DNA of 64,000 nt from Maribellus sediminis (lineage in GTDB: Bacteria > Bacteroidota > Bacteroidia > Bacteroidales > Prolixibacteraceae). The position numbers were made by a program, and so were the translations under genes. This document shows positions 3,280-50,918 of the stretch, piece by piece. How positions within the stretch are numbered: the first letter of the stretch is position 1; each line of letters opens with the position of its first letter. Under the pieces are notes generated by a model, which saw nothing but the letters and a program-made list of their open reading frames with translations, made no database searches and was not told the DNA's origin. The stretch is from positions 434,001 to 498,000 of the forward strand of contig NZ_WXUB01000001.1 of the NCBI RefSeq assembly GCF_011799805.1. The letters run 5' to 3'.

Positions 3280-3352
3280 TATTTTGAACATTGAGTTAAA
3301 ACAGGACCAATCCTATAAAATTGTGTAAATAACAGTAAGTCAAAATAAAAAT

Positions 3353-3360: not shown

Positions 3361-3469
3361 CATTCCTTTTTCTGAGGGTTCAGAACAATGAACCAATAAC
3401 ACAGAAGTCTGTTTCAGAATAGAATTTAAGATGCATAGTTGTTAGTTATTAATTTAATATCCGAAAACA

Positions 3470-34030: not shown

Positions 34031-34104
34031 GGGCCTATAGCTCAGTTGGTTAGAGCACCTGACTCATAATCAGGGGGTCCCTGGTTCAAGCCCAGGTGGG
34101 CCCA
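34031..34104 (+). tRNA. tRNA with CAT anticodon (Met or lysidine-modified Ile2)
   Basis: A 74-base cloverleaf: acceptor arm GGGCCTA/TGGGCCC (one G-U), D arm with GCTCAGTTGGTTAGAGC, anticodon stem CTGA/TCAG around CTCATAA (anticodon CAT), and T arm CCTGG-TTCAAGC-CCAGG; discriminator A. No CCA is encoded. CAT in this context can be elongator tRNA-Met or tRNA-Ile2; sequence alone cannot decide. The last 21 bases of the gene plus one downstream base recur at 49184-49205. Confidence 0.95.
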
Positions 34105-34105
34105 C
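34084..34105 (+). repeat. Left attachment-like repeat (tRNA 3' end)
   Basis: This 22-bp segment covers the T arm loop, the 3' acceptor strand, the discriminator base and one base beyond. It matches 49184-49205 except at one position (G here, A there, in the T stem). The tRNA stays intact on this side. Confidence 0.75.
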
Positions 34106-34112
34106 GGATTTA

Positions 34113-34157
34113 AAATGAAGCACTTAGATATATTCTTTAAGTTGCTTCATTTTTTTT
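34113..34157 (+). terminator. Terminator behind the tRNA gene
   Basis: AAATGAAGCA (34113-34122) pairs with TGCTTCATTT (34143-34152), extended inside by CTTA/TAAG, and is followed by T residues to 34157. Confidence 0.8.
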
Positions 34158-34179
34158 ATTTGCACACAATTTGCACACA
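34158..34179 (+). repeat. Tandem 11-bp direct repeat ATTTGCACACA x2
   Basis: Two adjacent exact copies, 34158-34168 and 34169-34179, about 53 bp inside the left tRNA repeat. The 11-bp period is about one helical turn, as in binding sites for recombinases or accessory factors (inference). Confidence 0.8.
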
Positions 34180-34380
34180 GAATTTGGATGTGATCGCTCT
34201 TGAGAGTGGAAATGGAATTCTAAAGTATCGGGCTGTGCTTAAACCAAGAGAATGACATTCTTCTATTTACGGCTGGATTCTTCTGAAGTTCCGAGACAAT
34301 AACTTCATAAACTGACGTTTGCCTGGCTGTTATTTTGTATTGCTTGCGGCGGGGCTTATAACTTGTTTTTTGTCTAAGAA

Positions 34381-34483
34381 TATCTAGTTTATCTATTATT
34401 TGACATCTCAATTCCCTCTTATTTAACACTCTAGCGACTCAAGAATATCTAAGTCTATCTAAAAGTTTATCTAAATCTATCTT
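34381..34483 (+). repeat. Cluster of TATCTA hexamers
   Basis: TATCTA occurs at 34381, 34390, 34446, 34456 and 34468, with TATCTT at 34478; the spacing in the second group is 10, 12 and 10 bp. An inverted TAGATAA follows at 34498. The phasing with the DNA helix suggests protein-binding sites near the left end of the putative island. Confidence 0.6.
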
Positions 34484-34794
34484 GCATTTTCATTTTTAGA
34501 TAAACTTAAGATCCAAATCGGATAACGATTTGTCCCAATATTGATTATGGTTTTATCTTTCTTTGACATTGCATATAGAATGTTCCTTCCTTTATTCTCT
34601 TTTTGTTTAACTTCCAATACTGAGGGGAAGATATCAAGGACCAAATTATCATTGTCCTTTTTAGTGGCTTCCGAGCGTTTTATACGTATCCTATATTCAA
34701 GGATTTTTTGGAAACAAGAGCATAATACAGTACTACCTTTCCAATGCATTTGTATTAAAGCAGGACGTTTTCTGTAGGTTTATAATGCGATGGG

Positions 34795-35502
34795 TTATTC
34801 GTACAATCGATTAAAATGATTTTCGAGATGCTTACGCATACCTTCCCTGAATTTTTTTGCACTACCGTTTTTTAATATTTGAACAAGCTCTTTATGCGAA
34901 ACATGTTTCTTCTTCTTGATCGGCTTGTTTATTAAACCACTGTCGTAGGCAAAGTTAAATACCGGAAGCAGGATGGTTTGAAAATTCTTGAGTGTATTAT
35001 TCCTTGTTATTTCATAAAGTTTACCGTGAAACTGTATTTCATGTTCAATGTCGAAAAGAACATTACCGGTCGATTCGGGTTCAGAATTGACAATATTTTC
35101 CAGTTCTGCAATGTCGTCATCAGTAATGTGTTGAAATATGGAATCGGCCATTCCTATCTCGAGGATTAGTCGAATTTCAAATATATTTCTTAGTGTTTCG
35201 TCATCAAGGACTTTAGGAATCATTGATTTCTGAAGAATCTGTGCCAGGTTTGGACTCGTGAGCACCGTTCCTTTGTGTTTAATGGAGTCTACTAATCCCA
35301 TTGCCTTCAACCTGGTAAGTGACTCCCGAATCACAGTTCGGCTTACGCCCATGGCGCTGGCCAATTCCAGTTCTTTAGGTATTGTATCACCGGTCTTCAA
35401 TCCTTTATTAATAAAAATCTCCAGCAACTGCATTTCTACGCGATCAACTAAACTGCTTGTGTCGATTGTAGATATCTGATTTAACAAGTTATTTTCTGCC
35501 AT
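34795..35502 (-). CDS. GntR-family (FadR subgroup) transcriptional regulator of the sialic acid locus
   Basis: A 235-residue regulator with a winged-helix GntR domain (about 15-85: ELELASAMGVSRTVIRESLTRLKAMGLV) and an all-helical FCD ligand domain (about 95-230), with the Asp/His-type metal-ligand region near IEHEIQFHGKLYE. The FadR subgroup includes E. coli NanR, which responds to sialic acid. It is divergent from the SusC gene (79 bp between its start and the upstream open frame; 124 bp to the likely susC ATG), and a fitting palindrome lies at 35590-35604. It is therefore inferred to repress the nan genes. Confidence 0.88.
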   Translation of the reverse strand: MAENNLLNQISTIDTSSLVDRVEMQLLEIFINKGLKTGDTIPKELELASAMGVSRTVIRESLTRLKAMGLVDSIKHKGTVLTSPNLAQILQKSMIPKVLDDETLRNIFEIRLILEIGMADSIFQHITDDDIAELENIVNSEPESTGNVLFDIEHEIQFHGKLYEITRNNTLKNFQTILLPVFNFAYDSGLINKPIKKKKHVSHKELVQILKNGSAKKFREGMRKHLENHFNRLYE

Positions 35503-35554
35503 ATTGTAAGTATAACACTATAAAAATTAAAAACATACAAATTTTAAAAAACAT

Positions 35555-35584
35555 TTTGAATTAAAAAACTAATCCCTATATTTG
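35555..35584 (+). promoter_or_regulatory. Promoter of the sialic acid operon
   Basis: TTTG (35555-35558) and TATATTTG (35577-35584) match the Bacteroidota -33 and -7 boxes with about 18 bp between. It places transcription start just before the palindrome at 35590 and about 35 bp ahead of the susC ATG at 35627. Confidence 0.65.
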
Positions 35585-35589
35585 TCGCA

Positions 35590-35604
35590 TTATGTCATAC
35601 ATAA
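35590..35604. promoter_or_regulatory. Candidate GntR operator
   Basis: TTATGTCATACATAA has 6-bp inverted arms around CAT and the GT-N3-AC core of FadR-subgroup GntR operators. It starts 6 bp after the -7 box, at the transcription start, where a bound repressor would block initiation. Confidence 0.5.
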
Positions 35605-35626
35605 AACATTAATTAATATCAAATTT

Positions 35627-38600
35627 ATGGAAAAAGTTCTAACTAAAAAAGCTATCATTTTACTTTTCCTACTCTTTATGGGCATAGTAAATGGTATGTC
35701 ACAAATTGTGATAGAGGGCAAAGTCTTGGATGCCTCGCAAAATACCCCGCTGCCCGGTGTTAACGTAATTCTTCTTGGCACCACAACTGGTGTTTCTACA
35801 GATGTTGACGGAGCATTCTCTATTGAAGTACCTTCTGAAGAATCACAGTTGATGTTCTCTATGATCGGTTTCACATCGCGAACGATCACGGTTGGTACAT
35901 CACGGTATTTCGATGTAGTATTAGAGGTTGAAACCACGGCTTTGGATGAAGTAGTTGTCACAGGTTATTCAACGCAATCTCGTGCAGAGATGACTACATC
36001 AATTTCGAAACTTGATACAAAAGTATTGCAAAGTGTTCCCCGTTCGAATGCGGCGACAGCCTTGCAGGGAACCATTGCAGGTTTGAAAGTTACACAAACA
36101 ACAGGTCAGCCTGGAACTACTCCTTCTCTGGTGGTTCGTGGAGGTACAAGCTTCGATGGAAGCGGTTCTCCGCTGATTCTTGTGGATGGAGTCCCCAGTT
36201 CGTTTTATGCACTCAATTCCGACGACATAGAGTCGATGGAAGTGCTGAAAGATGCAGCCTCGACTGCTATTTACGGAGCAAGGGCAGCCAATGGTGTTAT
36301 TCTTATTACCACGAAAAAAGGAAAGGTTGGAAAATCAAACATCAATTTCAGGGCGAAATTTACTTCAAATCAAAAACGCGATGATCCTATGGAATATTTA
36401 GGGGCAGCCGATTACGTAAAATATAATCGTTTGGGTGTGCGTGCAGCACAGGATGTTATGGGGTATCCGTGGCTTGATGTGTTTTTAACAGGCGGTCATG
36501 CAGCAGCGACAGGTAATAATACCACCAATTCAATATACACCACTATGGTTCTCACTGATGAGAACAAGTATTTGTTGAATTACGATGGATGGCAAACTAT
36601 TGAAGATCCCATCAATCCCGGAACAACACTGATTTTCATGGAAAATCAAATGAACGAATTGTTTTACCAGGAAAGCTATTCGCAGGATTACAGTTTGTCG
36701 TTCGACGGCGGAAACGATAAAGGAACTTATTACCTGGGATTGGGATACATGGATGACAATGGATTGGTATTCGGCTCATCGTTCACTCGTGTCTCAGGAA
36801 CCTTTAACGGATCGTATAAGATTACCGAAAATTTCAAGGTCAGTTCAAATATTATTTTTGCACATTCAAGCCAGGATTTGCCTTATGATTCAGAATACAA
36901 CCTGTTTCAACGAACTGCCGGCTTAGCTCCGACTTCACGGATTTACAATAATAATCCTGATGGCAGTTTGTCAGATGAATACCAGCCGGGAACCTACCTT
37001 GGATTTGGAAATCCATTGTATTACAAAGATAAATTTGTCCGAACAAATCTTGAAGAACGTTTTACCGGCTCAGTTCAGTTTGATTATAAATTTCTGAACG
37101 ATTTTAATCTTACCGTTCGCGGAAGTCATTTTTCAATCAATAATACAAATGAATCGTTTGATAAAGCATACTTGAACTCAGGGTCTTTAAGAACGGAAAG
37201 AAAATCAGCAGCCTCTTACCGGAGGACTCTGCGCGATCAGATAACAGCAATGCTGAATTACAAAAAGTCTTTTGACGGGCACAATGTTACTGCTTTGTTA
37301 GGATCGGAATATTTCATGGAGAAGTATTTCACATTTAATGCAGCAACACGGCTTTCACCAACCGATTTAATTTACACGATGAACGTTGGTTCCGAAGCCA
37401 GTGGTGTCCCTTATTCCTATAAAACCGGATACGAAATAGCATCGCTTTTTGGTCAGGTAAACTATGATTTCGATTATAAATACCTCTTTGGATTTACGTT
37501 TAGATACGATGGTACATCTCGCTTAGGAAATAATAAATACGATTTCTTCCCGGGCGTTTCGGCAGGATGGAACATCCATAATGAAGACTTCTTCAGCAAA
37601 TCAAAAATTAAATCTACCATCAGTAAAATCAAACCACGTTTGAGTTACGGGGTGAACGGAAACATCGACGTCTTGAGTAATTTTGGTGTATTTGGTACAT
37701 ACGCTCTCACCAGTGTTTACGATACTCAAACGGGTTATGCCAATACACAACTTCCTTTGCTCGATTTGAAATGGGAACGATCAACTACTTTCAATATGGG
37801 CTTGGATATTGGTTTCTTCAACGACAGGCTGACCTTGATTGGAGATTATTTCATACGTGATGTGAAGGATAAACTGGCAGGCTTGACTTTGCCGCTTTGG
37901 ACCGGTTTCTCTTCCATTACAACCAATAATGGCACCTTGCAAAACCGTGGCCTGGAATTACAGGTGAATGCTGATGTTATTAAAACTGCCGATTTTAACT
38001 GGAATGTAGGACTTACCTATTATTCAGTTAAAAATTATGCCAAATCGCTTCCCGATAATGGAATTGAAAAGAATCGACAGGGAGGTACCGAAATCTATGA
38101 TCCGGCAACTGATGGAACAAAATATGTTGGTGGTTTGCAGGAAGGTGAACGTGTTGGACTGGATTTGATTACTGCCTATGTATTCGACGGTGTTTACCAG
38201 ACACAAGCCGAAATCGATGAACACGATGGAAGGATTGTGGATTTTGCCACTAAAAAAGATGTAAGATTTCTTGGTGACACCAGATGGAAAGATTTAAATG
38301 GAGACAACATCATTAATTATCTCGATCGGGTTGTAATAGGAAGGAGAACTCCCAAATTTACGGGGGGTTTTACAAATGAATTTAATTATAAAGGCTTTAG
38401 TTTATTTGTAAAATCAGACTTTGCCGTGGGCCATTATATCATTAATGGTCGCCGGGTAAAAGGTATTGCACAAACTCAAGGGAACCAGAATGGGCCGGCC
38501 GAAATTGCAGATTCCTGGACAACAGAAAATCCAACTTCGAATATACCAATCTTCACTTTAGTTGACCGCCAACGTAACCATCTTGCCGCTGGAGGAGACC

Positions 38601-38863
38601 AGGGATCAATGGATAACAGCAGCTCCCGTATGTGGGAGAAGGGTGATTACCTTGCTTTACGTGAACTAACCTTGAGTTATGATTTGGATGGAAAAATTGC
38701 AAAGAATATTTTCCAAAACGCAAGATTATATATCAGTGGTTCTAACCTGGCTTATTTCAATGGTTTTTCAGGCAGTTCTCCTGAAGAATCGTCATCAGGT
38801 CTTGATACCGGTAGATTTCCTCTGCCTCGGACCTATACACTCGGATTAAATGTAACTTTTTAA
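35627..38863 (+). CDS. nanO: SusC/RagA-type TonB-dependent receptor for sialic acid or sialoglycans
   Basis: From ATG 35627 (MEKVLTKKAIILL) a 1078-residue SusC-like outer-membrane receptor; the open frame could begin at a TTG at 35582, but that lies inside the promoter. Signal peptide about 1-25; carboxypeptidase-regulatory-like domain (VLDASQNTPLPGVNVILLG, about 30-110); TonB box region VVVTGYSTQ; plug with the SusC signature DVLKDAASTAIYGARAANG (here EVLKDAAST); then a 22-strand barrel. It imports a ligand with energy from TonB. Its place before susD, sialidase and lyase genes makes it the likely counterpart of Tannerella NanO. Confidence 0.88.
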   Translation: MEKVLTKKAIILLFLLFMGIVNGMSQIVIEGKVLDASQNTPLPGVNVILLGTTTGVSTDVDGAFSIEVPSEESQLMFSMIGFTSRTITVGTSRYFDVVLEVETTALDEVVVTGYSTQSRAEMTTSISKLDTKVLQSVPRSNAATALQGTIAGLKVTQTTGQPGTTPSLVVRGGTSFDGSGSPLILVDGVPSSFYALNSDDIESMEVLKDAASTAIYGARAANGVILITTKKGKVGKSNINFRAKFTSNQKRDDPMEYLGAADYVKYNRLGVRAAQDVMGYPWLDVFLTGGHAAATGNNTTNSIYTTMVLTDENKYLLNYDGWQTIEDPINPGTTLIFMENQMNELFYQESYSQDYSLSFDGGNDKGTYYLGLGYMDDNGLVFGSSFTRVSGTFNGSYKITENFKVSSNIIFAHSSQDLPYDSEYNLFQRTAGLAPTSRIYNNNPDGSLSDEYQPGTYLGFGNPLYYKDKFVRTNLEERFTGSVQFDYKFLNDFNLTVRGSHFSINNTNESFDKAYLNSGSLRTERKSAASYRRTLRDQITAMLNYKKSFDGHNVTALLGSEYFMEKYFTFNAATRLSPTDLIYTMNVGSEASGVPYSYKTGYEIASLFGQVNYDFDYKYLFGFTFRYDGTSRLGNNKYDFFPGVSAGWNIHNEDFFSKSKIKSTISKIKPRLSYGVNGNIDVLSNFGVFGTYALTSVYDTQTGYANTQLPLLDLKWERSTTFNMGLDIGFFNDRLTLIGDYFIRDVKDKLAGLTLPLWTGFSSITTNNGTLQNRGLELQVNADVIKTADFNWNVGLTYYSVKNYAKSLPDNGIEKNRQGGTEIYDPATDGTKYVGGLQEGERVGLDLITAYVFDGVYQTQAEIDEHDGRIVDFATKKDVRFLGDTRWKDLNGDNIINYLDRVVIGRRTPKFTGGFTNEFNYKGFSLFVKSDFAVGHYIINGRRVKGIAQTQGNQNGPAEIADSWTTENPTSNIPIFTLVDRQRNHLAAGGDQGSMDNSSSRMWEKGDYLALRELTLSYDLDGKIAKNIFQNARLYISGSNLAYFNGFSGSSPEESSSGLDTGRFPLPRTYTLGLNVTF

Positions 38864-38876
38864 GCAATATCAGATT

Positions 38877-40361
38877 ATGAAAAAGTATATCATATTATTT
38901 GTGTCAATCGTATTCCTGATTTCATGTGAGCTCGACATGAAACCGGAAAGTGATTTAACTTACAATGGATTCTGGGATACAGAGGAAGCAGCCAAAGCTG
39001 CACACGTTGGAATTTATGCTAATTTCCGAAACTATCACTCTACAATCTGGAGAATGGGAGAAGTTCGTGCGGATCTATGGGGTGGAGCAACTTTTGCAAA
39101 TTCACCTTCTGATCTTGATTTGATAGAAAACAACATTAGTACTTCAATAGTGTACTTTTCGAACTGGGCGAACTTTTATGGTTTGCTGCATTACATCAAC
39201 GACTTCATAAAAAATGCACCTGAGGTTGAGTTTTCAAATGAACAGGATTTAAATCACATGCTGGGACAGGTATACGGACTACGTGCATTTGTATATTACA
39301 CTATGGTAAAAGCCTGGGGTGACGTACCGATTAGTACTGAACCACTTTTAGAGGTAGATCTGGAAACATTGAAGAAACCACGCGCTCCAAAAACAGAAGT
39401 GATGAATCAAATTAAAAGCGACATTGCTAAATCGCTTGAATATTTTGGTAATGACAATAGTTTGTGGCTGGGGAAAACAATATACTGGTCGAAGGCTGCT
39501 ACATTAGCTTTAAAAGGTGATGCATTCATTTGGTCAGGAAAAGTGCTTGGAGGCGGTAATGCAGATTTTAACGAGGCCAAATCGGCACTGGAGCAGATGA
39601 CAGAATTCGAATTGGAGTCATACTCCAATCTTTGGGGACAGGTAAACGAAAATAACTTAGAGTTTATATTTACGGTTGATTATCAGAAGGACCAGGCCAG
39701 TAATTTTTATGGAAGCTGGACTACAACAAGAGCCGTTGATCTGGTTAATTTGACAGATGAACACGGAAACCCGATGGACAATTTTGTAGTGAATGGTCTG
39801 AGCCGTTACGGTGTTTCTGAGAAAGTTCTTCTAATGATGGATGATACCCTCGATCAACGACGGAATACTTTTCTACGTGTGTATGATGATGGAAGTGTTC
39901 ATGTGCCGTTTCAGGCAGGAGATCCCAGTTATCAGGGGTCCATCCTTAATAAATTTTTAGGTGTAATAGGTGATGACGGAACACGTTGGGATTATAATAA
40001 TGTTCCATTATACCGATATGCCGATGTATTACTCTTGCTGGCAGAGGCGAAGAATAACCTGAATGAAGATCCGTCAGAGTTGATCAATCTGGTCCGTGCA
40101 AGGGCTTATGGCGACAACTTTACCGGACATGAATATATCAATGGTACAAAAGCCGAGAATACACAAGCGATACTCGACGAAAGATTAAAAGAATTTTTCG
40201 CTGAAGGCAAACGCTGGTGGGATTTGGTTAGAGCAGGTGATAACTATGTTTTCGAAGAGGTGGCAACACTGGATGCTGACGAAGCATATAAAATTTACTA
40301 CTCAATATCTGAGTCGATGCTCGCTAACGATCCGGAATTAAAACAGACCGATGGCTATTAA
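38877..40361 (+). CDS. nanU: SusD/RagB-type surface lipoprotein for sialic acid or sialoglycans
   Basis: A 494-residue SusD homologue with a lipobox (LISC, Cys 17). The helical TPR-like family pattern is present (QVYGLRAFVYYTMVKAWGDVP, then YRYADVLLLLAEAKN and the closing LKEFFAEGKRWWDLVRAG). It starts 14 bp after the SusC stop. It would form the lid of the SusC pore and bind the ligand; by position it is the counterpart of Tannerella NanU. A hairpin follows before the sialidase gene. Confidence 0.88.
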   Translation: MKKYIILFVSIVFLISCELDMKPESDLTYNGFWDTEEAAKAAHVGIYANFRNYHSTIWRMGEVRADLWGGATFANSPSDLDLIENNISTSIVYFSNWANFYGLLHYINDFIKNAPEVEFSNEQDLNHMLGQVYGLRAFVYYTMVKAWGDVPISTEPLLEVDLETLKKPRAPKTEVMNQIKSDIAKSLEYFGNDNSLWLGKTIYWSKAATLALKGDAFIWSGKVLGGGNADFNEAKSALEQMTEFELESYSNLWGQVNENNLEFIFTVDYQKDQASNFYGSWTTTRAVDLVNLTDEHGNPMDNFVVNGLSRYGVSEKVLLMMDDTLDQRRNTFLRVYDDGSVHVPFQAGDPSYQGSILNKFLGVIGDDGTRWDYNNVPLYRYADVLLLLAEAKNNLNEDPSELINLVRARAYGDNFTGHEYINGTKAENTQAILDERLKEFFAEGKRWWDLVRAGDNYVFEEVATLDADEAYKIYYSISESMLANDPELKQTDGY

Positions 40362-40402
40362 TCAGGATGTTCGCATAGATTTAGTTTGGTTAGATTCATT
40401 AG

Positions 40403-40429
40403 AGGAGAGTCGTGTACTGCGACTCTCCT
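40403..40429 (+). terminator. Hairpin after the SusD gene (partial terminator or mRNA processing element)
   Basis: AGGAGAGTCG pairs perfectly with CGACTCTCCT (10 bp) with a seven-base loop. The tail TTGAATT is not a T run, so it probably reduces rather than stops read-through, or protects the susCD mRNA, making less transcript of the sialidase and catabolic genes. Confidence 0.65.
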
Positions 40430-40612
40430 TGAATTAAATCTATTCGAATATAATTTTTCTGTTATTACGAAGCGTTTTGTTACCTTGTTAACGGTACTCA
40501 TTAAGTAGTACCGGCAATTTTAAAAGAATAGTTTAAAGTTAGGAAGGAACAGCTAGCGTAATGCATTTTTGAAACTTACCCGACTACAGATTAGATATAA
40601 AATAGTTAAGAA

Positions 40613-41740
40613 ATGAAGATTACGGTTTTAAATATTATTGTTTTACTTTTTGCATTAGCAGCTTGTGCTCAGGAAGATTTGCTTCAGAAAACGGAGAACG
40701 ATCTGCTTTTACAAGATTTGTTTGATGCAGGAAATAATGACGCAGTTTCATGTTATCGAATCCCTGCAATCGTAACAGCTCCGAATGGAGATCTGGTTGC
40801 TGCAATTGATGAACGTGTTCCGTCGTGTGGCGATCTGAAATGGAGCAAAGACATCAACATTGTAATCCGGCGCAGTACCGACTTGGGCAAAACATGGACA
40901 GAAATTGAAAGAGTAGTCGATTTTCCGTTCGGACAATCTGCTTCCGATCCATCGATGATTGTTGATGAAGAAACGAAGGAGATTTTCCTGTTCTATAATT
41001 TTATGGACCTCGAAAAGGAAAAAGATGTGTATTACCTTCATTACACCAAAAGTGCCGACAACGGAAAAACCTGGAGTGATCCGGTTGATATTACAGCTCA
41101 AATTACAAAGCCGGAATGGGACACCGGTTTTAAATTTATTACATCGGGCCGCGGGATTTATACCAGCACCGGAAAAATGTTGCATTGCATGGTTAACCTT
41201 AGCTACGGAGTAAATGTGTTTGGCAGCAACGATCATGGGAAAACCTGGTATTTTATCGATACGCCGATTTCGCCAGCTGACGAATCAAAGATTGTAGAGC
41301 TCGAAGATGGCAGCTGGATGATAAACAGTCGTGTTAACGGGAAAGGAATGCGATATGTGCACATTTCAACAGACGAAGGGAAATCGTGGCAAACACGACC
41401 GGAATCGCATCTGATAGATCCGGGTTGCAATGCAAGTATAATTCGATATACTTCCGTAAAGGATGGCGACGACAAAAACCGTCTTCTTTTTTCAAATGCA
41501 AAAATGAAAGATGCCCGGGTGAACATGACGGTTCGTATTAGTTACGACGAGGGTGAAACATGGTCGGAAGGAAAAACGATTTATGCCGGGAGTTCGGCTT
41601 ATTCATCGCTGACAGTTCTTGACAACGGTGACATTGGATTATTCTTCGAAAAAGATGAGTATTCTAAAAATACCTTCGTCAGCTTTTCTTTAGAATGGCT
41701 AACTGACGGTGAAGATGGTTTAAGAAAATCAAAAAATTGA
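40613..41740 (+). CDS. nanH: Sialidase (GH33), lipoprotein
   Basis: A 375-residue GH33 sialidase with a lipobox (LAAC, Cys 18), so probably anchored at the cell surface or in the outer membrane. YRIP carries the first triad Arg (49), and five Asp boxes are present: STDLGKTW, SADNGKTW, SNDHGKTW, STDEGKSW and SYDEGETW. It should release terminal Neu5Ac from glycans. It lies between SusD and GH20 genes in the sialic acid locus. A sequence-divergent second GH33 protein lies at 23810. Confidence 0.88.
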   Translation: MKITVLNIIVLLFALAACAQEDLLQKTENDLLLQDLFDAGNNDAVSCYRIPAIVTAPNGDLVAAIDERVPSCGDLKWSKDINIVIRRSTDLGKTWTEIERVVDFPFGQSASDPSMIVDEETKEIFLFYNFMDLEKEKDVYYLHYTKSADNGKTWSDPVDITAQITKPEWDTGFKFITSGRGIYTSTGKMLHCMVNLSYGVNVFGSNDHGKTWYFIDTPISPADESKIVELEDGSWMINSRVNGKGMRYVHISTDEGKSWQTRPESHLIDPGCNASIIRYTSVKDGDDKNRLLFSNAKMKDARVNMTVRISYDEGETWSEGKTIYAGSSAYSSLTVLDNGDIGLFFEKDEYSKNTFVSFSLEWLTDGEDGLRKSKN

Positions 41741-41778
41741 AACAAAAAACCAATAGAACCAAATAAACAAACAGGAAT

Positions 41779-43767
41779 ATGCACAAATTCAACTTAAATC
41801 GGGGTTGGAGACAATTCATTAAATTGAATCTGCTGATACTATCAGTCCTGTTTTTCTTTGCGTGTAAAAAGCAGCACATTGAAAAGCCTGCGCTTATTCC
41901 CATGCCACAAAAGTTGGAATGGAACGGGGAGGTTTTTAAAATGACAGACAGTAGTGCATGTTTTGTGCAGCATATTGTTCCACGCATCGCTGAAGTCCCT
42001 TTTCACCAGCAAGAAGCCTACAGACTGCATATTACAGCTGATTCTGTAATTCTTGAAGCAACAACTGCAAAAGGTTTATACTGGGGACAACAAACCATTC
42101 GGCAAATCAAGCAAACGATTAACGGTAAGAAAGTTCTTCAGGGATGCGAAATCATTGACTGGCCGGCGTTTTCCGTGCGTGGATTTATGCAGGATGTAGG
42201 AAGAAATTATCAGTCGATTCAGATGCTGAAAGAGCAAATCGACGTGCTCTCGGCGTATAAGATGAACACCTTTCACTTACATCTCACCGATAATCCGGGG
42301 TGGAGGCTGGAAAGTAAAATATATTCGCAGTTGAAGAATCCCGAGACCATGAGTCGTTGGCCGGGAAAATACTATTCACAAGAACAGTTTGTAGAATTGT
42401 CAAATTACTGTGCAGGCAAAAATATTACCTTGATTCCGGAATTTGATGTACCGGGCCATAGTCAGGCTTTCCGCGAAGCATTCGAGTTGGACAGCATGAG
42501 CGATCCGAGCGTAAGAGCGATTTTGTTAGGTTTGATAGACGAACTTTGCAGTCTCCTGCCCCCGGAACAAATGCCTTTTATTCATATTGGAACCGATGAA
42601 GTTTGGCATGCCTACGAAAAACCTGATCCACAATTGTTATCAGATCTCATCGACCGAATTCAAAGCCACGGCAGGGAGGTCATTGTTTGGCGTCCTGGTA
42701 TCGAGATACAAAGAGATACGGTTTCCATCACACAACTTTGGTCTTCAAATGGTCATCCAAAACCCGGGCATCGCTTCCTTGATTCGCGTTTGAATTACCT
42801 TAATCATCTTGATCCTCTGGCCGGAGTTACACAGTTATTTTTTGAACGTATTGGTGGCGCGGCTCATGGCGATTCCATTCGCCTGGGAGGAATTTTGTGT
42901 TGCTGGAACGATAACAACGTAAACGACGAATACGACATTATTAAACAGAATCCGGTTTACCCGGGAATACTCACCTACGCCGAAACTTCGTGGACAGGAC
43001 AGGAAAACGAATTTGGCGAAACCTATCTTGCTAAACTGCCCGAAAAAGGAAGCGAGCTGTTTAACGAATTCAGTGCTTTTGAGGACAGGATGATTCAGCA
43101 CCGCGATAAATATTTTACCGAAAAACCTTTCCCTTACATCAAACAAGCAAATATTGAATGGAAAATTTTAGGACCGATAGCAAATGATAGCGATGTTGAT
43201 GCTAAGTTCCCGGTTGAAAATACTTTACAGGAAAATTACCAGATCGACACGACAAATTATACCTGGCAAGGACCTTTTTATGGAGGGACGATTCATTTGA
43301 CTCACTTTTTTGGCTACCCGTCTAATTTTCCAAAAGAAGAGGGAACTTACTACGCATACACGAAAATTTGGTCACCCAAAGAACAAACTGCTGGGGCATG
43401 GATCGGTTTTCACGACTGGTCGCGTTCGGGTGGCAGAAGAGGAGGACCGTTTCCGAAAGAAGGAGAATGGCACAATACACAACCGAAAGTTTGGTTGAAT
43501 GGTAAGCTTGTTGATGCTCCTAAATGGAATAATCCCGGGGTGGCAAGTAGTACGGAAGAAATTCCATTCTCTGACGAAAATTATTTTTTCAGAAAGCCGA
43601 GTTCCATTCACCTGAATAAAGGTTGGAACGAAGTGCTGCTGAAAATTCCAGTGAAAAAAGATACCTGGAAAAGAATGTTCACGTTCATTCCTGTTCAAAT
43701 CGAAAACGAGAATGTAAAGGAAGTGCCAGGTTTAAAATATAATTCAGAAATAAATTTTAAAAATTAA
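41779..43767 (+). CDS. GH20 beta-N-acetylhexosaminidase, lipoprotein
   Basis: A 662-residue protein with a lipobox (FFAC, Cys 29). The GH20 N-terminal alpha/beta domain (about 40-130) leads into the TIM barrel (about 130-440) with FMQDVGRNYQSIQMLKEQID, the FHLHLTDNPGWR motif and the catalytic pair Asp 273-Glu 274 in HIGTDEVW. About 200 further residues form C-terminal beta domains of uncertain type. It would remove beta-linked GlcNAc or GalNAc exposed after sialidase action. It resembles the HexA placement in the Tannerella sialic acid cluster. Confidence 0.88.
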   Translation: MHKFNLNRGWRQFIKLNLLILSVLFFFACKKQHIEKPALIPMPQKLEWNGEVFKMTDSSACFVQHIVPRIAEVPFHQQEAYRLHITADSVILEATTAKGLYWGQQTIRQIKQTINGKKVLQGCEIIDWPAFSVRGFMQDVGRNYQSIQMLKEQIDVLSAYKMNTFHLHLTDNPGWRLESKIYSQLKNPETMSRWPGKYYSQEQFVELSNYCAGKNITLIPEFDVPGHSQAFREAFELDSMSDPSVRAILLGLIDELCSLLPPEQMPFIHIGTDEVWHAYEKPDPQLLSDLIDRIQSHGREVIVWRPGIEIQRDTVSITQLWSSNGHPKPGHRFLDSRLNYLNHLDPLAGVTQLFFERIGGAAHGDSIRLGGILCCWNDNNVNDEYDIIKQNPVYPGILTYAETSWTGQENEFGETYLAKLPEKGSELFNEFSAFEDRMIQHRDKYFTEKPFPYIKQANIEWKILGPIANDSDVDAKFPVENTLQENYQIDTTNYTWQGPFYGGTIHLTHFFGYPSNFPKEEGTYYAYTKIWSPKEQTAGAWIGFHDWSRSGGRRGGPFPKEGEWHNTQPKVWLNGKLVDAPKWNNPGVASSTEEIPFSDENYFFRKPSSIHLNKGWNEVLLKIPVKKDTWKRMFTFIPVQIENENVKEVPGLKYNSEINFKN

Positions 43768-43768
43768 G

Positions 43769-44686
43769 ATGAATAAAATAAAAGGCCTTATCACAGCACC
43801 GTTCACCCCAATGGATGAAAAAGGAGAAATTGTTTTTGGGAAAATTCCCGATTACGTCAGGCTATTGTTGAAGAATAAGGTGGTTGGTGCATTTATAAAT
43901 GGTTCAACAGGTGAGGGAGTTTCTCTTTCGCAAAAAGAAAGAATGCAATTGACAGAGCATTGGATAAAAGCTGCTTCTGGTACAAAGGAATTAAAAATCA
44001 TTAACCTGGTTGGCGGGACATCATATAAGGAATCTATAGAAAATGCACAGCACTCGAGGGAGTGTGGGGTAGATGCAATTGCGTTGCTTGCACCGTATTA
44101 TTTTAAGCCCGCGAATGCTGGTTTGTTAGCAGAGTTCTGCGCGAAAGTAGCCGAAGCTGTTCCGGATATACCTTTCTACTTCTACCACATACCGGTGCTA
44201 TCGGGGTGTTATGTTTCCATGTATGATTTTCTTCAGGAAGCGGACTCGATGATTCCGAACCTTGCTGGTATAAAATACACTCATGAAGATTTTATGGATT
44301 TCCAAAGCTGTTTGAATTTTATGGACAGAAAATACGACATGCTTTGGGGGCGCGATGAGAACCTGTTATCTGCATTGGTATTAGGAGCCCGCGGAGGAGT
44401 TGGAAGTACGTTTAACTATGCTGCTCCTCTCTACTATCAACTTATTGATGCATTTGACAATGGTGATCTCGATAAAGCACGAAAATTACAACATCAGTCA
44501 ATCGACATGATTCGCCTGCTTGGAAAATACGGTGGAATTGCGACCGGCAAAGCCTATATGCGATACATTGGTTTTGAATGCGGAGAATTCCGTTTACCTG
44601 TGAAGAATATGAGCGACGATGCTTACAAAGAGTTTGAAAAAGATGTTCATGATTTACAAATGCAGGAACTTTTCAGTTCGCTTTAA
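43769..44686 (+). CDS. nanA: N-acetylneuraminate lyase
   Basis: A 305-residue class I aldolase of the DHDPS/NAL superfamily, splitting Neu5Ac into ManNAc and pyruvate in the cytoplasm. GSTGEG (45-50) binds the carboxylate; Tyr 139 is in FYFYHIPVLSG; the Schiff-base Lys 169 is in AGIKYTHEDF. The HIPVLSG and KYTHEDF forms fit NAL rather than DapA. It starts 1 bp after the GH20 stop. It corresponds to nanL of the Bacteroides fragilis nanLET operon. Confidence 0.93.
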   Translation: MNKIKGLITAPFTPMDEKGEIVFGKIPDYVRLLLKNKVVGAFINGSTGEGVSLSQKERMQLTEHWIKAASGTKELKIINLVGGTSYKESIENAQHSRECGVDAIALLAPYYFKPANAGLLAEFCAKVAEAVPDIPFYFYHIPVLSGCYVSMYDFLQEADSMIPNLAGIKYTHEDFMDFQSCLNFMDRKYDMLWGRDENLLSALVLGARGGVGSTFNYAAPLYYQLIDAFDNGDLDKARKLQHQSIDMIRLLGKYGGIATGKAYMRYIGFECGEFRLPVKNMSDDAYKEFEKDVHDLQMQELFSSL

Positions 44687-45854
44687 GCAAAAACTAAGAT
44701 TGGTTTCATTTATCCTTTTAGGGGGAATTGTACTTCAATGCTCTCCCGATGATAAAATAACAGCAATGAAAATCAAATGGGGGAGTCTACCGGATCTACC
44801 ACCGGTAAGTGACCAACTGGAACAAAAAGGACTTGCAGGTGCTCTGATTGGAGTATCTTCAGAAATGCTTATTGTTGCAGGAGGTTCCAATTTTCCGGAT
44901 TCTTTGCCCTGGCGGGGAGGAACTAAAACCTATTACGACGATATTTATTTCGTTAACCTGAAGGGAAAAGGTGCTACATGGCACCTTGCTAAAGAAAAAC
45001 TTCCGGAACCATTGGCCTATTCGAGCTGTGTATCGGTAGGTGACAAAATTATTTGTATTGGTGGCGAAAATCCGAATGGACCGCTACCAGGCGTTTTACA
45101 ATTGAAGTATATTAACAATGAGGTGCTAATCAACAAGCTGACTGATTTTCCTGTACCCATTTCGAATAGCGGGGCAGCAGCCGTTGGTACCATGGTTTAT
45201 GGTGTCGGAGGTATAGGTCCGAAAGGCAATCTATCATCGTTTTATTGTGCTGATGTGCAAAAAGCTGATTTCGAATGGGAAAAACTCCCCGACTTGCCAC
45301 GAGAGGTATCCAATGCAGTAGTTGTAAGTCAGTGGGATGGGGTAGAGGATTGTGTTTATGTTTTAGGAGGTCGCAATAAGGAGGCGGCATTAAGCAATTT
45401 TTACAACACGGTTTGGAAATATACGCCGTCGAAGAAAGTGTGGCATCTTGTCGGTGAAATAAACAATGACCAAAATGAACCATTAACACTGGCTGCTGGA
45501 ACAGGAGTTGCTGTAGGGAAAAACCATATCCTGCTTTTTGGTGGTGACAACGGTCAATTATACAACAAAACTGAAGCGTTTATCAATGCTGCTGCTGAAG
45601 CTGAAACACTCGGGCAAAAAACGGAAATAAACAGTAAGAAAATAAAGCATTTGGAAAGCCATCCTGGATTCAGTAAACAGGTGCTTTTATACAACACGCT
45701 TACTAACGAATGTGTGGAGATAACAACACTCCCGTTTCCGGCCCAGGTAACTACCAGCTCTGTAAAGTACGGTAATAAAATATTTATACCGAGTGGAGAA
45801 ATCAGGCCGGGTGTGCGTACCCCAAAAGTAAATATTGCCGAAATATCAGAATAA
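44649..45854 (+). CDS. nanM: Kelch-type sialic acid mutarotase, lipoprotein
   Basis: About 401 residues from ATG 44649; ATG 44619 and 44643 are also in frame, and all overlap the end of nanA, so the start is uncertain. A lipoprotein signal (FILLGGIVLQC) precedes a six-bladed Kelch propeller (repeats such as IICIGGENPNG, YGVGGIG, VYVLGGRN, LLFGGDNG, FIPSGEI). It matches the 'cyclically permuted mutarotase' group, which converts alpha- to beta-Neu5Ac outside the inner membrane. The overlap with nanA shows tight coupling. Confidence 0.85.
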   Translation: MIYKCRNFSVRFKQKLRLVSFILLGGIVLQCSPDDKITAMKIKWGSLPDLPPVSDQLEQKGLAGALIGVSSEMLIVAGGSNFPDSLPWRGGTKTYYDDIYFVNLKGKGATWHLAKEKLPEPLAYSSCVSVGDKIICIGGENPNGPLPGVLQLKYINNEVLINKLTDFPVPISNSGAAAVGTMVYGVGGIGPKGNLSSFYCADVQKADFEWEKLPDLPREVSNAVVVSQWDGVEDCVYVLGGRNKEAALSNFYNTVWKYTPSKKVWHLVGEINNDQNEPLTLAAGTGVAVGKNHILLFGGDNGQLYNKTEAFINAAAEAETLGQKTEINSKKIKHLESHPGFSKQVLLYNTLTNECVEITTLPFPAQVTTSSVKYGNKIFIPSGEIRPGVRTPKVNIAEISE

Positions 45855-45878
45855 TTGGAAGTAGTAAAACAGGAAGAA

Positions 45879-47048
45879 ATGGATTTCAAAATTTTATCGG
45901 AAAAATATAAAAGCGAACTATTTGATAAGGTGATTCCTTTTTGGGAAGAGCATTCGGTCGATCAGGAATATGGAGGATATTTCACGTGCTTAGACCGTGA
46001 AGGGAAGATTTTTGATACCGATAAATTTATATGGCTACAAGCCCGCCAGGTGTGGATGTTCTCAAAATTATACAATGAAGTAGAACAGAAGCCGGAATGG
46101 TTAGAGATTGCTTTAAACGGTGCAGCTTTTCTGCAACAGTATGGACATGACGGGAACCTGAATTGGTATTTTTCGCTTACCCGCGAGGGCGAGCCGTTGG
46201 TTCAGCCGTACAATGTTTTTTCCGATTGTTTTGCAACAATGGCCTTTGGGCAACTAAGCAAAGCTACCGGCAGCGATGAGTTCGCGACCATTGCAAAAGA
46301 TACTTTTCAGAATATTTTAAAACGAAGCGATAATCCTAAGGGAGCATTCAACAAGTTAATGCCTGGCACACGTCCGTTAAAGGGATTTTCACTGCCCATG
46401 ATTATGTGTAACCTGGCGCTCGAAATTGAGCATCTGCTGGCGCCTGAGTTGGTCTACAACACAGTCGAAAGAGTATTGCACGAAGTGATGGATGTTTTTT
46501 ATCAGCCGGATTCCGGATTGATTTTGGAAAATGTTCATCCCGATGGTAGTTTTTCCGACTCTTTTGAAGGTCGCTTATTAAATCCGGGGCACGCCATCGA
46601 AGCCATGTGGTTCATATTAGACTTGTCTGAACGACTTCAAAAGCCTGAACTGGCGCAAAAGGCAGTAACCATTGCTCTGCGCACATTAAAATACGGATGG
46701 GATGAAGAATACGGTGGTATTTATTATTTCCTCGATATAAAAGGAAATCCGCCTCAGCAATTGGAATGGGACCAGAAACTCTGGTGGGTACATATCGAGA
46801 CATTAATAACGCTGATAAAAGGATACACACTTACTGGAAACAAGGAATGTTTGAGCTGGTTTGAAAAAGTTCATGATTATACCTGGTCGCATTTTACCGA
46901 CCCGGAATATGGTGAATGGTTTGGATACCTAAACCGGCAGGGCGATGTGTTGCTGAATCTGAAAGGCGGCAAATGGAAAGGTTGTTTTCATGTACCACGC
47001 GGTTTATTTCAGGTATGGAAAACATTGGAGAAAATAAACAACAGATAA
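45879..47048 (+). CDS. nanE: N-acetylmannosamine/N-acetylglucosamine 2-epimerase (RnBP type)
   Basis: A 389-residue AGE-family (alpha/alpha)6-barrel protein; ATG 45879 follows AGGAAG and is preferred over TTG 45855. Conserved parts are GGYFTCLDREGKIFD, WLQARQVWMFSKLY, FLQQYGHDG, NPGHAIEAMWF and KLWWVHIETL with catalytic histidines. It interconverts ManNAc and GlcNAc. In Bacteroides fragilis a renin-binding-protein-like epimerase does this directly, in place of the NanK/NanE route through ManNAc-6-P. No kinase is in the locus, which agrees with this route. Confidence 0.92.
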   Translation: MDFKILSEKYKSELFDKVIPFWEEHSVDQEYGGYFTCLDREGKIFDTDKFIWLQARQVWMFSKLYNEVEQKPEWLEIALNGAAFLQQYGHDGNLNWYFSLTREGEPLVQPYNVFSDCFATMAFGQLSKATGSDEFATIAKDTFQNILKRSDNPKGAFNKLMPGTRPLKGFSLPMIMCNLALEIEHLLAPELVYNTVERVLHEVMDVFYQPDSGLILENVHPDGSFSDSFEGRLLNPGHAIEAMWFILDLSERLQKPELAQKAVTIALRTLKYGWDEEYGGIYYFLDIKGNPPQQLEWDQKLWWVHIETLITLIKGYTLTGNKECLSWFEKVHDYTWSHFTDPEYGEWFGYLNRQGDVLLNLKGGKWKGCFHVPRGLFQVWKTLEKINNR

Positions 47049-47077
47049 ACGGTAAAAAAGAATCAAATCAAACATAT

Positions 47078-48337
47078 ATGAATCAAAGCAAAGTAAAATC
47101 AATATATCCCTGGGTCGTAGTTGGACTTTTATGGGTGGTGGCTTTGTTAAATTACATGGATCGCCAGATGTTATCGACGATGAAAGTCTCGATGATGATC
47201 GATATAAAGGAGCTTGAAACAGCCGAAAATTTTGGTCGCTTAATGGCAGTTTTTCTTTGGATTTACGGTTTCATGAGCCCGGTGGCCGGATTGATTGCCG
47301 ACCGTGTTAACCGTAAGTGGCTTATTGTCGGCAGTCTGGCTGTTTGGTCTGGGGTAACATTGTCAATGGGGTATTCAACAAACTTTCATGTTCTTTACAT
47401 CCTACGTGCTATTATGGGGATTAGCGAAGCGCTATACATCCCTGCGGCCCTTGCATTAATTGCCGATTACCATAAGGAAGGAACACGCTCTCTGGCCATA
47501 GGAATACACATGACCGGATTATATTTTGGACAGGCTATTGGTGGTTTTGGAGCGACCGTGGCACACGAATTTTCGTGGCAAACTACATTTCATTCATTTG
47601 GACTTATCGGGATCGCTTACAGTATTGTCCTAATCTTTTTTCTGCGTGAAAAAAAGGATCGTTTTGCATCGAAACAAATCGAAACAAGTGGAGGTATTAA
47701 AATTCGAGGGTTTAAATCGATATCTCAAAGTCTTGGAATGTTACTGGGAACTGTAAGTTTCTGGGTGATCCTGTTTTATTTTGCAGCTCCCAGTTTTCCC
47801 GGATGGGCTACAAAAAACTGGCTGCCTACACTATTCTCAGAAAGTCTCGGAATGGACATGTCTAAAGCGGGTCCACTGGCAACCATTACCATTGCTGCTT
47901 CTTCGTTCATCGGTGTAATATTTGGAGGTATTCTGGCTGACCGTTGGATTATGAAGAACCTGCGTGGAAGGATTTACACGGGAGCCATTGGTTTGAGTTT
48001 GCTTATTCCTTCTTTGATACTACTCGGGTTTGGCCATGGATTAATAGGAATTCTTGGTGGTGGTGTATTGTTTGGGATTGGCTTTGGGATGTTTGATGCG
48101 AACAACATGCCCATATTGTGTCAGTTTGTTTCGCCGAGGCACCGTGCAGCAGGTTACGGATTAATGAACCTCACCGGTGTTTTTGCCGGTGCTTTTGTAA
48201 CTGAATTACTCGGGAAATCTACCGATTCAGGTCATTTGGGAAGAGACATGGCATTGCTTGCTATTCCGGTTGCTTTGGCCGTTGTGCTCCAGCTACTGGT
48301 TTTGAAGCCAAAAGTGGCCAACAAGGAAGAGGATTAA
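47078..48337 (+). CDS. nanT: MFS transporter, probable sialic acid permease
   Basis: A 419-residue major facilitator with about 12 membrane segments; ATG 47078 (MNQSKVKSIYPWVVVGLLW) is chosen because the open frame upstream of it overlaps nanE. Typical MFS loop motifs are ADRVNRK after helix 2 and ADRWIMKNLRGR after helix 8. The LNYMDRQMLSTM opening resembles anion:cation symporter members. Between nanE and the esterase, it is the likely inner-membrane carrier for Neu5Ac (NanT of the nanLET operon). Confidence 0.88.
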   Translation: MNQSKVKSIYPWVVVGLLWVVALLNYMDRQMLSTMKVSMMIDIKELETAENFGRLMAVFLWIYGFMSPVAGLIADRVNRKWLIVGSLAVWSGVTLSMGYSTNFHVLYILRAIMGISEALYIPAALALIADYHKEGTRSLAIGIHMTGLYFGQAIGGFGATVAHEFSWQTTFHSFGLIGIAYSIVLIFFLREKKDRFASKQIETSGGIKIRGFKSISQSLGMLLGTVSFWVILFYFAAPSFPGWATKNWLPTLFSESLGMDMSKAGPLATITIAASSFIGVIFGGILADRWIMKNLRGRIYTGAIGLSLLIPSLILLGFGHGLIGILGGGVLFGIGFGMFDANNMPILCQFVSPRHRAAGYGLMNLTGVFAGAFVTELLGKSTDSGHLGRDMALLAIPVALAVVLQLLVLKPKVANKEED

Positions 48338-48388
48338 TCTGTAAAATTCTAATTTGTATACATAAATTGAATAAGCCATAATGGAGTT

Positions 48389-49051
48389 ATGAAGAAGATT
48401 ATTTTGAACCTTGTATTGCTGTTCTCTCTGTTCATCGTTTCGGCTCAGGAAAACGAGTTTGGCACCTATTATAACCAACGGTTGAGCCTTTTTATAAGTC
48501 TGCCTGATGAACCAAATGAGATAATAATGCTGGGTAACAGCATCACCGATGGCGGGGAATGGAGTGAGTTACTTCCTGGGTATAATGTAAAAAATCGTGG
48601 AATTAGCGGAGATGTTACCGCAGGTGTTTTGTACCGACTTAACGAGGTGACGAGCGCAAAACCCGCAAAAGTATTTCTGTTGATCGGGATCAACGATCTG
48701 GCAAGGGGAATTCCTGCAGACACAGTTTTCAAAAATATTTGTTTGATTGCGGAAAAGATCAGGGCGACAACTCCCGAAACTGAAGTTTATATTCAGAGTA
48801 TCCTGCCGGTAAATCCTTCATTTAAGAAGTTCGCCGGACATGTTGACAAAACAAATGCTGTTAAGCAGATCAACCAAAAATTGAACGACTGGTGCAGCGA
48901 AAATGATGTTGAGTTTGTTAATCTGTTTGATGCTTTTATCGAAAGTGATTCTGACTATTTGGATCCTGAATTTACTAACGATGGTTTACATCTTACAGCG
49001 AAAGGGTATTTGACCTGGATCAAAATAATCTATCCATTCATCAAAAGTTAA
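48389..49051 (+). CDS. Exported SGNH/GDSL esterase, possible sialate O-acetylesterase
   Basis: A 220-residue protein with a signal peptide (cut near VSAQ, residue 20). SGNH blocks: Ser 51 in MLGNSITDGG (I), Gly 71 in NRGISGD (II), Asn 102 in IGINDL (III), and Asp 198/His 201 in NDGLHLTAKG (V). All four catalytic residues are present. As the last gene of the sialic acid locus it may remove O-acetyl groups from host sialic acid, which block sialidase; this is inferred from position, since the SGNH fold covers many esters. Confidence 0.85.
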   Translation: MKKIILNLVLLFSLFIVSAQENEFGTYYNQRLSLFISLPDEPNEIIMLGNSITDGGEWSELLPGYNVKNRGISGDVTAGVLYRLNEVTSAKPAKVFLLIGINDLARGIPADTVFKNICLIAEKIRATTPETEVYIQSILPVNPSFKKFAGHVDKTNAVKQINQKLNDWCSENDVEFVNLFDAFIESDSDYLDPEFTNDGLHLTAKGYLTWIKIIYPFIKS

Positions 49052-49183
49052 TTCAATAATTTAAACGCAAATACTACATTAAACACTTGAAGTGTAATGA
49101 TATACGTAATAAGAGGCGTATAAATCGGGAGTAGACGATTTTCGACTTTTGTAATATGCTGATAACGAAATTCATAATAAAGA

Positions 49184-49205
49184 GTTCAAGCCCAGATGGG
49201 CCCAC
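49184..49205 (+). repeat. Right attachment-like repeat (tRNA 3' end copy)
   Basis: This 22-bp copy of tRNA bases at 34084-34105 has one mismatch. No full tRNA precedes it: only a TCATAAT like the anticodon loop lies 8-14 bp upstream, at the wrong distance. It falls in the 306-bp non-coding gap 49052-49357. Confidence 0.75.
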
Positions 49206-49226
49206 TTCTGGAAATTTAAGTTTGTG

Positions 49227-49257
49227 AAACGCTCGTTATAAATAACGGGCGTTTTTT
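49227..49257 (+). terminator. Strong terminator behind the right tRNA-end copy
   Basis: AAACGCTCGTTAT pairs with ATAACGGGCGTTT (13 bp, one G-U), then a T run to 49257. It sits 22 bp after the tRNA fragment, as a tRNA terminator would, and also ends the nan operon. Confidence 0.88.
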
Positions 49258-49357
49258 ATTGTGAATAAGATCAACTTGAATATCCAGTTTCTTTTGCAGA
49301 TGCTTGAATAAAGGCTATTTTTATTCCCTGTCAATTTAAAACCAAATTCAGCTAAAT

Positions 49358-50623: not shown

Positions 50624-50636
50624 CTCGATTTACCAT

Positions 50637-50918
50637 TTACAGCACAATTACGCCTTCTATTTTATCTGCCTGTTCGGTGATCTCAACAATCTGATCGGCG
50701 GAGTCCATCAGTGCTATACAGGTTACCGAAACATGTTTCAAATTGGAAGTATGCTTGAATGTTGTTTTACCGCTGTTAGGCAGTAAAGCTTTTATTTGAT
50801 CCACTTTCCCATCGTGGTTCGGGGTTATAAACTTGAACATGTATTTCAATGGCCAGTTATTATTTTCCATTAGGCGGTAACGCAGGTTTTTATATTTATC
50901 TATATCCATAAAATTCAT
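50637..50918 (-). CDS. DUF493 family protein
   Basis: A small cytoplasmic protein of 93 residues (or 90 from the Met at 50909). WPLKYMFKFITPN followed by a ferredoxin-like fold pattern (TSNLKHVSVTCIALMDSADQIVEI) fits DUF493 (YbeD-like), thought to bind ligands or act in regulation. It is convergent with the DUF4861 gene and separated from the regulator gene downstream on the plus strand by 189 bp with no clear promoter box. Confidence 0.7.
   Translation of the reverse strand: MNFMDIDKYKNLRYRLMENNNWPLKYMFKFITPNHDGKVDQIKALLPNSGKTTFKHTSNLKHVSVTCIALMDSADQIVEITEQADKIEGVIVL

Follow-up and report, generated by a model that had tools for sequence, protein, structure and literature searches.

A sialic acid locus between copies of a tRNA 3′-end in Maribellus sediminis, probable remnant of a tRNA-targeted integrative element

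A 64,000 nt stretch of the Maribellus sediminis genome (contig NZ_WXUB01000001.1, positions 434,001 to 498,000; hereafter the window, with positions counted from its first nucleotide) contains a set of genes for sialic acid utilization (nan) enclosed by two copies of a tRNA 3′-end. Was this set brought to the tRNA as the cargo of a mobile element, or did it come to lie there in some other way? A first-pass annotation of the window took the former view, proposing a 15.1 kb island that was acquired or moved as a unit and has no recombinase left. The analysis reported here indicates that the 15.1 kb are probably the remnant of a tRNA-targeted integrative element that carried nan and lost its integrase. 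The locus is bounded by a repeat of the tRNA 3′-end, insertions at this tRNA recur across the genus, related ends lie behind different cargo at that site, and the nan genes have mixed histories.

A repeat of the tRNA 3′-end bounds the locus

The 22 terminal bases of a tRNA gene with anticodon CAT were found repeated, with one mismatch, at a spacing of 15,100 bp (attL and attR in Table 1). The anticodon CAT by itself does not distinguish tRNA-Met from tRNA-Ile2. A search of the 5,595,594-base genome with a 21-base pattern of the tRNA end, allowing up to three mismatches, returned just these two sites and no third copy; the reversed control pattern gave 0 matches. Each copy is followed by its own terminator, and for both hairpins 0 of 200 shuffled sequences were equally stable. 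The repeat and the paired terminators pointed out in the first-pass annotation are thus both borne out. The tRNA has been kept intact with a terminator after it, and a direct repeat of its 3′-end bounds the insert, as expected of a tRNA-targeted island.

The island carries a complete nan locus and no visible recombinase

Between the repeat copies lies a complete nan locus, whose ten open reading frames (ORFs) were all assigned to Pfam families. A SusC/SusD pair, a sialidase, a lyase, an N-acetylmannosamine (ManNAc) epimerase and an MFS permease occur together, the combination that marks nanOU-type loci. Judged by these families, from which function is deduced, the island genes are a Bacteroidota nanOU-type sialic acid locus. 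The gene list proposed earlier holds with one change: the ‘mutarotase’ belongs to the kelch N-acetylneuraminate epimerases of the NanM type (PF24996).

No integrase was present among the ten scanned ORFs, all of which belong to other families. tblastn searches of the window with five integrases from the hotspot described below gave no match at 1e-15, none of the PF00589 matches listed for the genome (8 of 9) lies in the window, and the best match to an integrase remnant, in the stub downstream of the tRNA or in the sequence beyond the far copy, had an E-value of 0.097. The lack of a recombinase noticed earlier was seen in each of these searches. An integrase near one end, usual in tRNA islands, is missing from the window and present at the same tRNA in relatives; for want of it, the island is classed as a remnant and not as a working element.

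Insertions recur at the tRNA across the genus

A sample of 37 genomes of the genus, the window genome included, was inspected (G-codes below denote individual genomes). Nine other genomes carry ten copies of the tRNA 3′-end, 43–47 bp long, as found at an E-value of 1e-10, which is too strict to detect 23 bp copies. Seven of the ten lie downstream of the tRNA on the same contig (two in G003, one each in G005, G014, G018, G030 and G034), and three on other contigs (G036, G011 and G025). A tyrosine-integrase domain is located within about 1.2 kb of at least seven copies (both in G003, and those in G005, G014, G018, G034 and G036) and some 7 kb from the copy in G030; the domain listing covered 14 genomes, G011 and G025 being outside these, so the counts are minima. 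This tRNA is therefore a genus-wide insertion hotspot with integrase-bearing islands.

The conserved right border of the hotspot is a DUF493-family gene. It was detected in 18 of the 37 genomes; in ten of them, including the window genome, it follows the tRNA at a distance of 7.3 to 159 kb, and in the other eight it is on another contig, upstream or far off. The DUF4861 gene that follows the far tRNA-end copy has its relatives at other sites in the genus, so the variable region extends to 50636 in the window (34106–50636) and comprises the nan island plus the DUF4861 gene. The 15.1 kb unit at the tRNA thus stands as first described, while the right border of the variable region is marked by the DUF493 gene and not by 49205. 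Further to the right, a GH16-containing SusC/SusD locus (51108–65406) is also present on this side of the hotspot in several relatives and is inverted in G003.

Related right ends close different cargo

The island ends in a module of about 120 bp, formed by an arm of about 95 bp and the tRNA-end copy. The distance from the esterase ORF to the tRNA 3′-end copy is 126–132 bp in the window (one mismatch in the copy), in G009 (four) and in G007 (none), and in G007 tRNA-end copies, one of them decayed, flank nan on both sides. The arms of G007 and G009 agree at 58 of 93 positions, a value reached by 0 of 300 shuffles; a free alignment of the window arm with the G007 arm was equalled by 5 of 300.

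A profile built from four ends (the window, G009 and two of G007) was run on 272 sequences and detected five copies outside the training set, with E-values from 2.5e-26 to 9.2e-10. G010 has two of them, G003 and G036 have one apiece, adjoining the DUF493 gene, and the last is a third G007 copy located before the conserved right flank; as the G003 and G036 copies are identical, four of the five are distinct. A model rebuilt from nine sequences gave ten matches at E-values of at most 2.5e-13, in six of the 37 genomes: the nine training sequences and a new one, G010:C27:139447 (2.5e-13), devoid of the tRNA-end part. Eleven weak matches (5.8e-5 to 0.0096) were also obtained. In each genome the best 98 of the 1,575 to 5,506 first-look candidates were scored, and a lack of matches elsewhere is accordingly no proof of absence.

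The DNA preceding these ends varies. The order in G007 is tRNA, 16.5 kb, module, nan, module, about 12 kb, module and a HcyBio-MetH flank. The 16.5 kb segment encodes a nitric-oxide-reductase-like protein, hemerythrin-domain proteins, a molybdopterin enzyme and a ferredoxin-type protein (5 of its 15 ORFs were scanned), and the ORFs of the 12 kb segment look, from their translations, like sulfatases and a SusC/SusD pair (SusC by similarity). In G003 the module comes after a Fic gene. Species thus differ in the cargo that related ends close at this one tRNA, which may be nan, of the nitric-oxide-reductase type, sulfatase or Fic. These results bear on the notion that the repeat is a coincidence or a stray tRNA fragment unrelated to nan. 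The divergence of the window arm from other nan ends would fit, but the occurrence of just two sites in 5.6 Mb, the like arrangement in G007 and G009 and the profile matches outside the training set make this idea hardly credible.

The arm was compared, in 12 pairs, with the right ends of the islands of G003, G014 and G018 that bear an integrase. Between 4 and 273 of 300 shuffles did as well, with five pairs at no more than 34 and no pair at 0, and these ends are tentatively treated as another family. Comparison of the arm with the region upstream of the tRNA did not establish it as a copy of that region, being equalled by 82 of 300 shuffles for the window and 5 of 300 for one G007 copy. The module was also considered as an RNA structure; it showed three consensus pairs, none changed on both sides, and was consequently treated as DNA. 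Separately, a weak module match in G010 (C27:93973–94064) is preceded by sequence like the post-tRNA terminator of that genome, and looks as if left and right element ends had been joined with nothing between them.

Distribution and history of the nan genes

NanA homologues with at least 75% identity were found in ten of the 37 genomes, window included (61 genomes were searched in all). The nan genes lie downstream of this tRNA in four of the ten carriers, directly after the tRNA terminator in G009 and likewise adjacent in the window, and about 17 kb past the tRNA in G007 and G002. In the remaining six they are ectopic: G004, G032 and G018 share one address, and the right-hand flanks in G005, G006 and G010 match neither this address nor one another.

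A core tree of two genes (MetH and Gfo/Idh) from 27 genomes was used to test two clades, G002/G005/G006/G010 and G007+G009. Each core gene supports both clades; they differ on G018, which MetH groups with G004/G032 and Gfo/Idh with G002/G005/G006/G010. Within the first clade the core is 93–99% identical, NanA 78–99% and GH20 62–96%, with nan at different places. G007 and G009 have cores 94–96% identical, NanA 78% and GH20 66%, both loci being downstream of the same tRNA. In approximately unbiased (AU) tests, concatenated NanA, epimerase and GH20 rejected the two clades (p 6e-7 and 2e-4, respectively), as did GH20 singly (p 3e-5 and 2e-5) and the permease singly (p 0.0018 and 0.0076). The discordant gene trees looked for in an acquired locus were accordingly obtained with GH20, the permease and the concatenate, and not with NanA or the epimerase taken singly. 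Patchy presence (10 of 37 genomes, several addresses) joined to discordant gene history is what a tRNA island would be expected to show.

As judged from its proteins, the nan locus is mosaic, because the window sialidase (375 aa) is unlike the sialidase of about 550 aa in the nan loci of relatives, two of which were scanned for domains. Its nearest kin, in six genomes of the genus (63–74% identity), lie on other contigs or far from this tRNA. The proposal that the nan loci at the tRNA form one lineage (89/92 in the concatenate) was dropped, being rejected by NanA (p 0.019) and the permease (p 0.0012) singly.

An ancestral nan locus at this tRNA, lost or moved in other species without horizontal transfer, would account for the four of ten loci found downstream of it, for the shared address of G004, G032 and G018, which group together in NanA, and for the fact that neither NanA (p 0.155 and 0.275) nor the epimerase (p 0.254; G007+G009 grouped at 100/99) rejects the core clades. 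Such descent is nevertheless contradicted by the GH20 and permease tests and by the pair G002 and G010, whose core genes are 99 and 94% identical but whose nan proteins, encoded at different places, share 79, 86, 87 and 62% identity; we consider it improbable.

A candidate integrase family

In G010, a tyrosine integrase begins some 240 bp beyond the tRNA. The same genome has a serine recombinase gene with Resolvase and Recombinase domains (L236, 13619–15070) whose 3′-end overlaps a tRNA 3′-end copy. When 295 genomes of the order were searched with the model at 1e-4, using stricter filters and scoring 12 candidates per genome, only the window genome and G241, from another family, matched (E 8.8e-6 for the latter). 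The G241 match closes a 36.6 kb island at a tRNA-Arg(ACG) gene (G241:C40:88324–125024), ending in 25 bases that correspond, with four mismatches, to the 3′-end of this tRNA 36.6 kb upstream; near-identical terminators follow the tRNA-Arg and its 3′-end copy. The N-terminal part of an integrase starts about 165 bp past the tRNA-Arg, a piece at 118170–118694, 29 kb apart, may be its other half, and further recombinases lie inside the island. Among the five hotspot integrases, that of G010 is nearest to both pieces (34 and 42% identity). These two cases suggest that a G010/G241-type integrase family may be paired with this end.

Proposed origin of the island

The favoured explanation is that an element would have inserted by site-specific recombination into the tRNA-Met 3′-end, delivering its cargo, a complete sialic acid locus, together with a terminator that serves the tRNA. 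Its right end would consist of the arm of about 95 bp followed by a 23 bp core. At its left end, next to the tRNA, there was probably a tyrosine integrase (Arm-DNA-bind_5 + SAM_5 + Phage_integrase type) that has since been lost. Elements with varied cargo would stack in tandem at the tRNA, between the Gfo/Idh and DUF493 genes. By this account the arm may have been bound by the integrase, the enzyme used may have been of the G010/G241 type, and nan would have arrived together with the element.

Several observations weigh against this explanation, in addition to the NanA and epimerase tests. The base composition of the island, which the first-pass annotation proposed to compare with its flanks, does not set it apart: its G + C content is 0.405, compared with 0.422 and 0.415, and its tetranucleotide distance is exceeded by 32 of 85 windows of a 184 kb region. 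The empty site also envisaged, with the tRNA running directly into the sequence at 49206, was not found in any of the 37 genomes; of the ten in which tRNA and DUF493 gene share a contig and are no more than 160 kb apart, G029 has the shortest interval (7.3 kb). On the same question, in the G010 array the 75 bp after the far copy match the direct 3′-flank of the tRNA in G013 (score 112) and G008 (score 64), the shuffled maximum being 39. The sequence after the far copy in the window resembles post-tRNA sequence in G024 with a score of 43, picked from 561 compared pairs (maximum 39 in 3000 shuffled pairs); that G024 sequence is itself like an element left end in G010, so either side may be the original one. 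No module was found at the six ectopic nan loci with the rebuilt model, within the best 98 candidates scored per genome, and in G002 neither a module nor a second copy was found, just the plain tRNA end. Finally, the G010 integrase scores higher on two internal G241 recombinases (223 and 191 bits) than on the two pieces (149 and 135 bits); its best G241 match is an internal recombinase (30% identity over 408 aa, vs 34% over 278 aa for the tRNA-adjacent part).

The right end itself raises further objections and bears on the main rival explanation, namely that the boundary (tRNA, arm and far copy) is old and that nan was placed inside it later, by homologous recombination or by swapping of cargo between strains and not by an integrase acting on nan itself. 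The window arm is closest to the arms of G003 and G036, genomes without nan (66 of 92 positions), where it stands beside the DUF493 gene and, in G003, after the Fic gene. It is less like the nan end of G007 (46 of 92), and its likeness to the G009 arm is not clear (32 of 93; 209 of 2000 in-place shuffles were as good). The distinct window sialidase agrees with later placement, as do the modest identities of NanA and GH20 between the closely related G007 and G009 at the same tRNA. On the other side, a tRNA 3′-end copy 126–132 bp past nan in three genomes, and copies on both sides of nan in G007, are expected of a unit with its own ends. Later placement is possible, if doubtful. Confidence in the integrative element is lowered because the window arm is closest to copies not beside nan, because the pairing with the G241 integrase is not strong and because the competing readings are mutually exclusive. 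The proposal that nan was acquired or moved as a unit at the tRNA, and persists as a remnant without recombinase, is thus favoured by the hotspot, by the four of ten nan loci at this tRNA and by the rejection of two core clades by the concatenated nan proteins; it gains nothing from an empty site or from composition.

A wider idea, which we think rather unlikely, groups the window island with other metabolic cassettes that lack an integrase, each being a catabolic or respiratory gene set closed by the related end of about 120 bp. Tyrosine integrases from a single family would act on such cassettes in trans and build arrays of them at tRNA genes, and related cassettes would occur at further tRNAs in other families of Bacteroidota. 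The G007 array would then consist of a nitric-oxide-reductase/molybdoenzyme, a nan and a sulfatase-type polysaccharide utilization locus (PUL) cassette.

Relation to known systems

The Dehalococcoides ssrA islands (vcr; PMC3146451) lie in tandem downstream of one small-RNA gene and are bounded by 20 bp copies of its 3′-end; they carry varied cargo with its own history, and a 15 bp motif lies just 5′ of the copies. The hotspot described here resembles them in all these traits: tandem islands, 3′-end copies, varied cargo, sequence conserved 5′ of the copies and cargo with its own history. The Dehalococcoides islands differ in having a putative serine recombinase beside attL and a tmRNA target, whereas tyrosine recombinases occur at this hotspot and none in the nan island. 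Vibrio pathogenicity island-2 (PMC3014918) is a 57 kb island at a tRNA-Ser gene that keeps its tyrosine-family integrase, IntV2, and excises. It also carries sialic acid catabolism genes on a tRNA-gene island; unlike it, the window island measures 15.1 kb, is located at tRNA-Met, lacks an integrase and has a SusC/SusD-type locus. The nanOU PUL of Tannerella forsythia and Bacteroides fragilis (PMC3969230) shares with it the SusC/SusD pair and the sialidase, lyase, epimerase and MFS permease genes; in the part of that report available the PUL is not called a tRNA island, whereas the window locus is bounded by tRNA repeats.

Similar arrays are thus known. Among the matches listed in a search of the open-access literature, we did not find a nan island at a tRNA in Bacteroidota, nor this hotspot or the end of about 120 bp behind different cargo. 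The arrangements at this tRNA illustrate the gain, loss and reshuffling of an entire sugar-use pathway within a single genus of Bacteroidota. As the island has neither an integrase nor an odd base composition, searches relying on those features could miss it, and the 120 bp end offers a handle for locating such islands after integrase loss.

Features of the window and sialidase loci in other taxa

The features discussed are collected in Table 1.

Table 1. Features of the hotspot and the nan island in the window
Feature	Position	Strand	Remarks
Gfo/Idh/MocA oxidoreductase gene (left anchor)	32260..33756	+	Directly 5′ of the tRNA in 21/37 genus genomes (two of the 37 yielded no tRNA match)
tRNA(CAT), called Met by ARAGORN	34031..34105	+	Proposed insertion target; attL = its 3′-end, 34083-34105
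Terminator 3′ of intact tRNA	34112..34157	+	Hairpin + T run, -15.7 kcal/mol, z -5.5
Gene-poor stub between tRNA terminator and GntR gene	34160..34794		
GntR/FCD regulator	34795..35502	-	Pfam scan
SusC-like TonB-dependent receptor, NanO-like by position	35582..38863	+	Pfam scan
SusD-like binding protein, NanU-like by position	38877..40361	+	Pfam scan
Sialidase (BNR), 375 aa	40613..41740	+	Differs from ~550-aa sialidase at the same place in relatives’ nan loci
GH20 hexosaminidase	41779..43767	+	Pfam scan
N-acetylneuraminate lyase-like, DHDPS family (NanA)	43769..44686	+	
NanM-type kelch N-acetylneuraminate epimerase	44619..45854	+	PF24996; listed start overlaps NanA
N-acylglucosamine 2-epimerase family (ManNAc epimerase)	45855..47048	+	Pfam scan
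MFS permease, NanT-like	46916..48337	+	Listed start overlaps epimerase
GDSL/SGNH esterase, probable sialate O-acetylesterase	48389..49051	+	
Right-end module, ~120 bp (~95-bp arm + tRNA 3′-end copy)	49090..49205	+	Related ends lie behind other cargo at this tRNA
attR, 22-bp tRNA 3′-end copy	49184..49205	+	1 mismatch
Terminator 3′ of far copy	49226..49255	+	Hairpin + T run, -16.0 kcal/mol, z -3.7
DUF4861 gene	49358..50623	+	Relatives elsewhere in other genus genomes; counted to the variable region
DUF493-family gene (right anchor)	50637..50918	-	Conserved right border

Proximity to a tRNA is no general rule for sialidase loci in other taxa, as only 5 of 49 such loci hold any tRNA. In Draconibacterium sp. 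CSMAG_289 (L129, 4677–11116; part of G028:C301), a sialidase cluster with a GntR-like gene, two sialidases and a GH20 gene begins about 330 bp after a tRNA-Ser gene; no repeat of the 3′-end of this tRNA was found within the 11.3 kb examined. In two metagenome-assembled genomes of Candidatus Hydrogenedentota (L153 and L154), a sialidase match lies directly beside a tRNA-Pro gene of the opposite strand.

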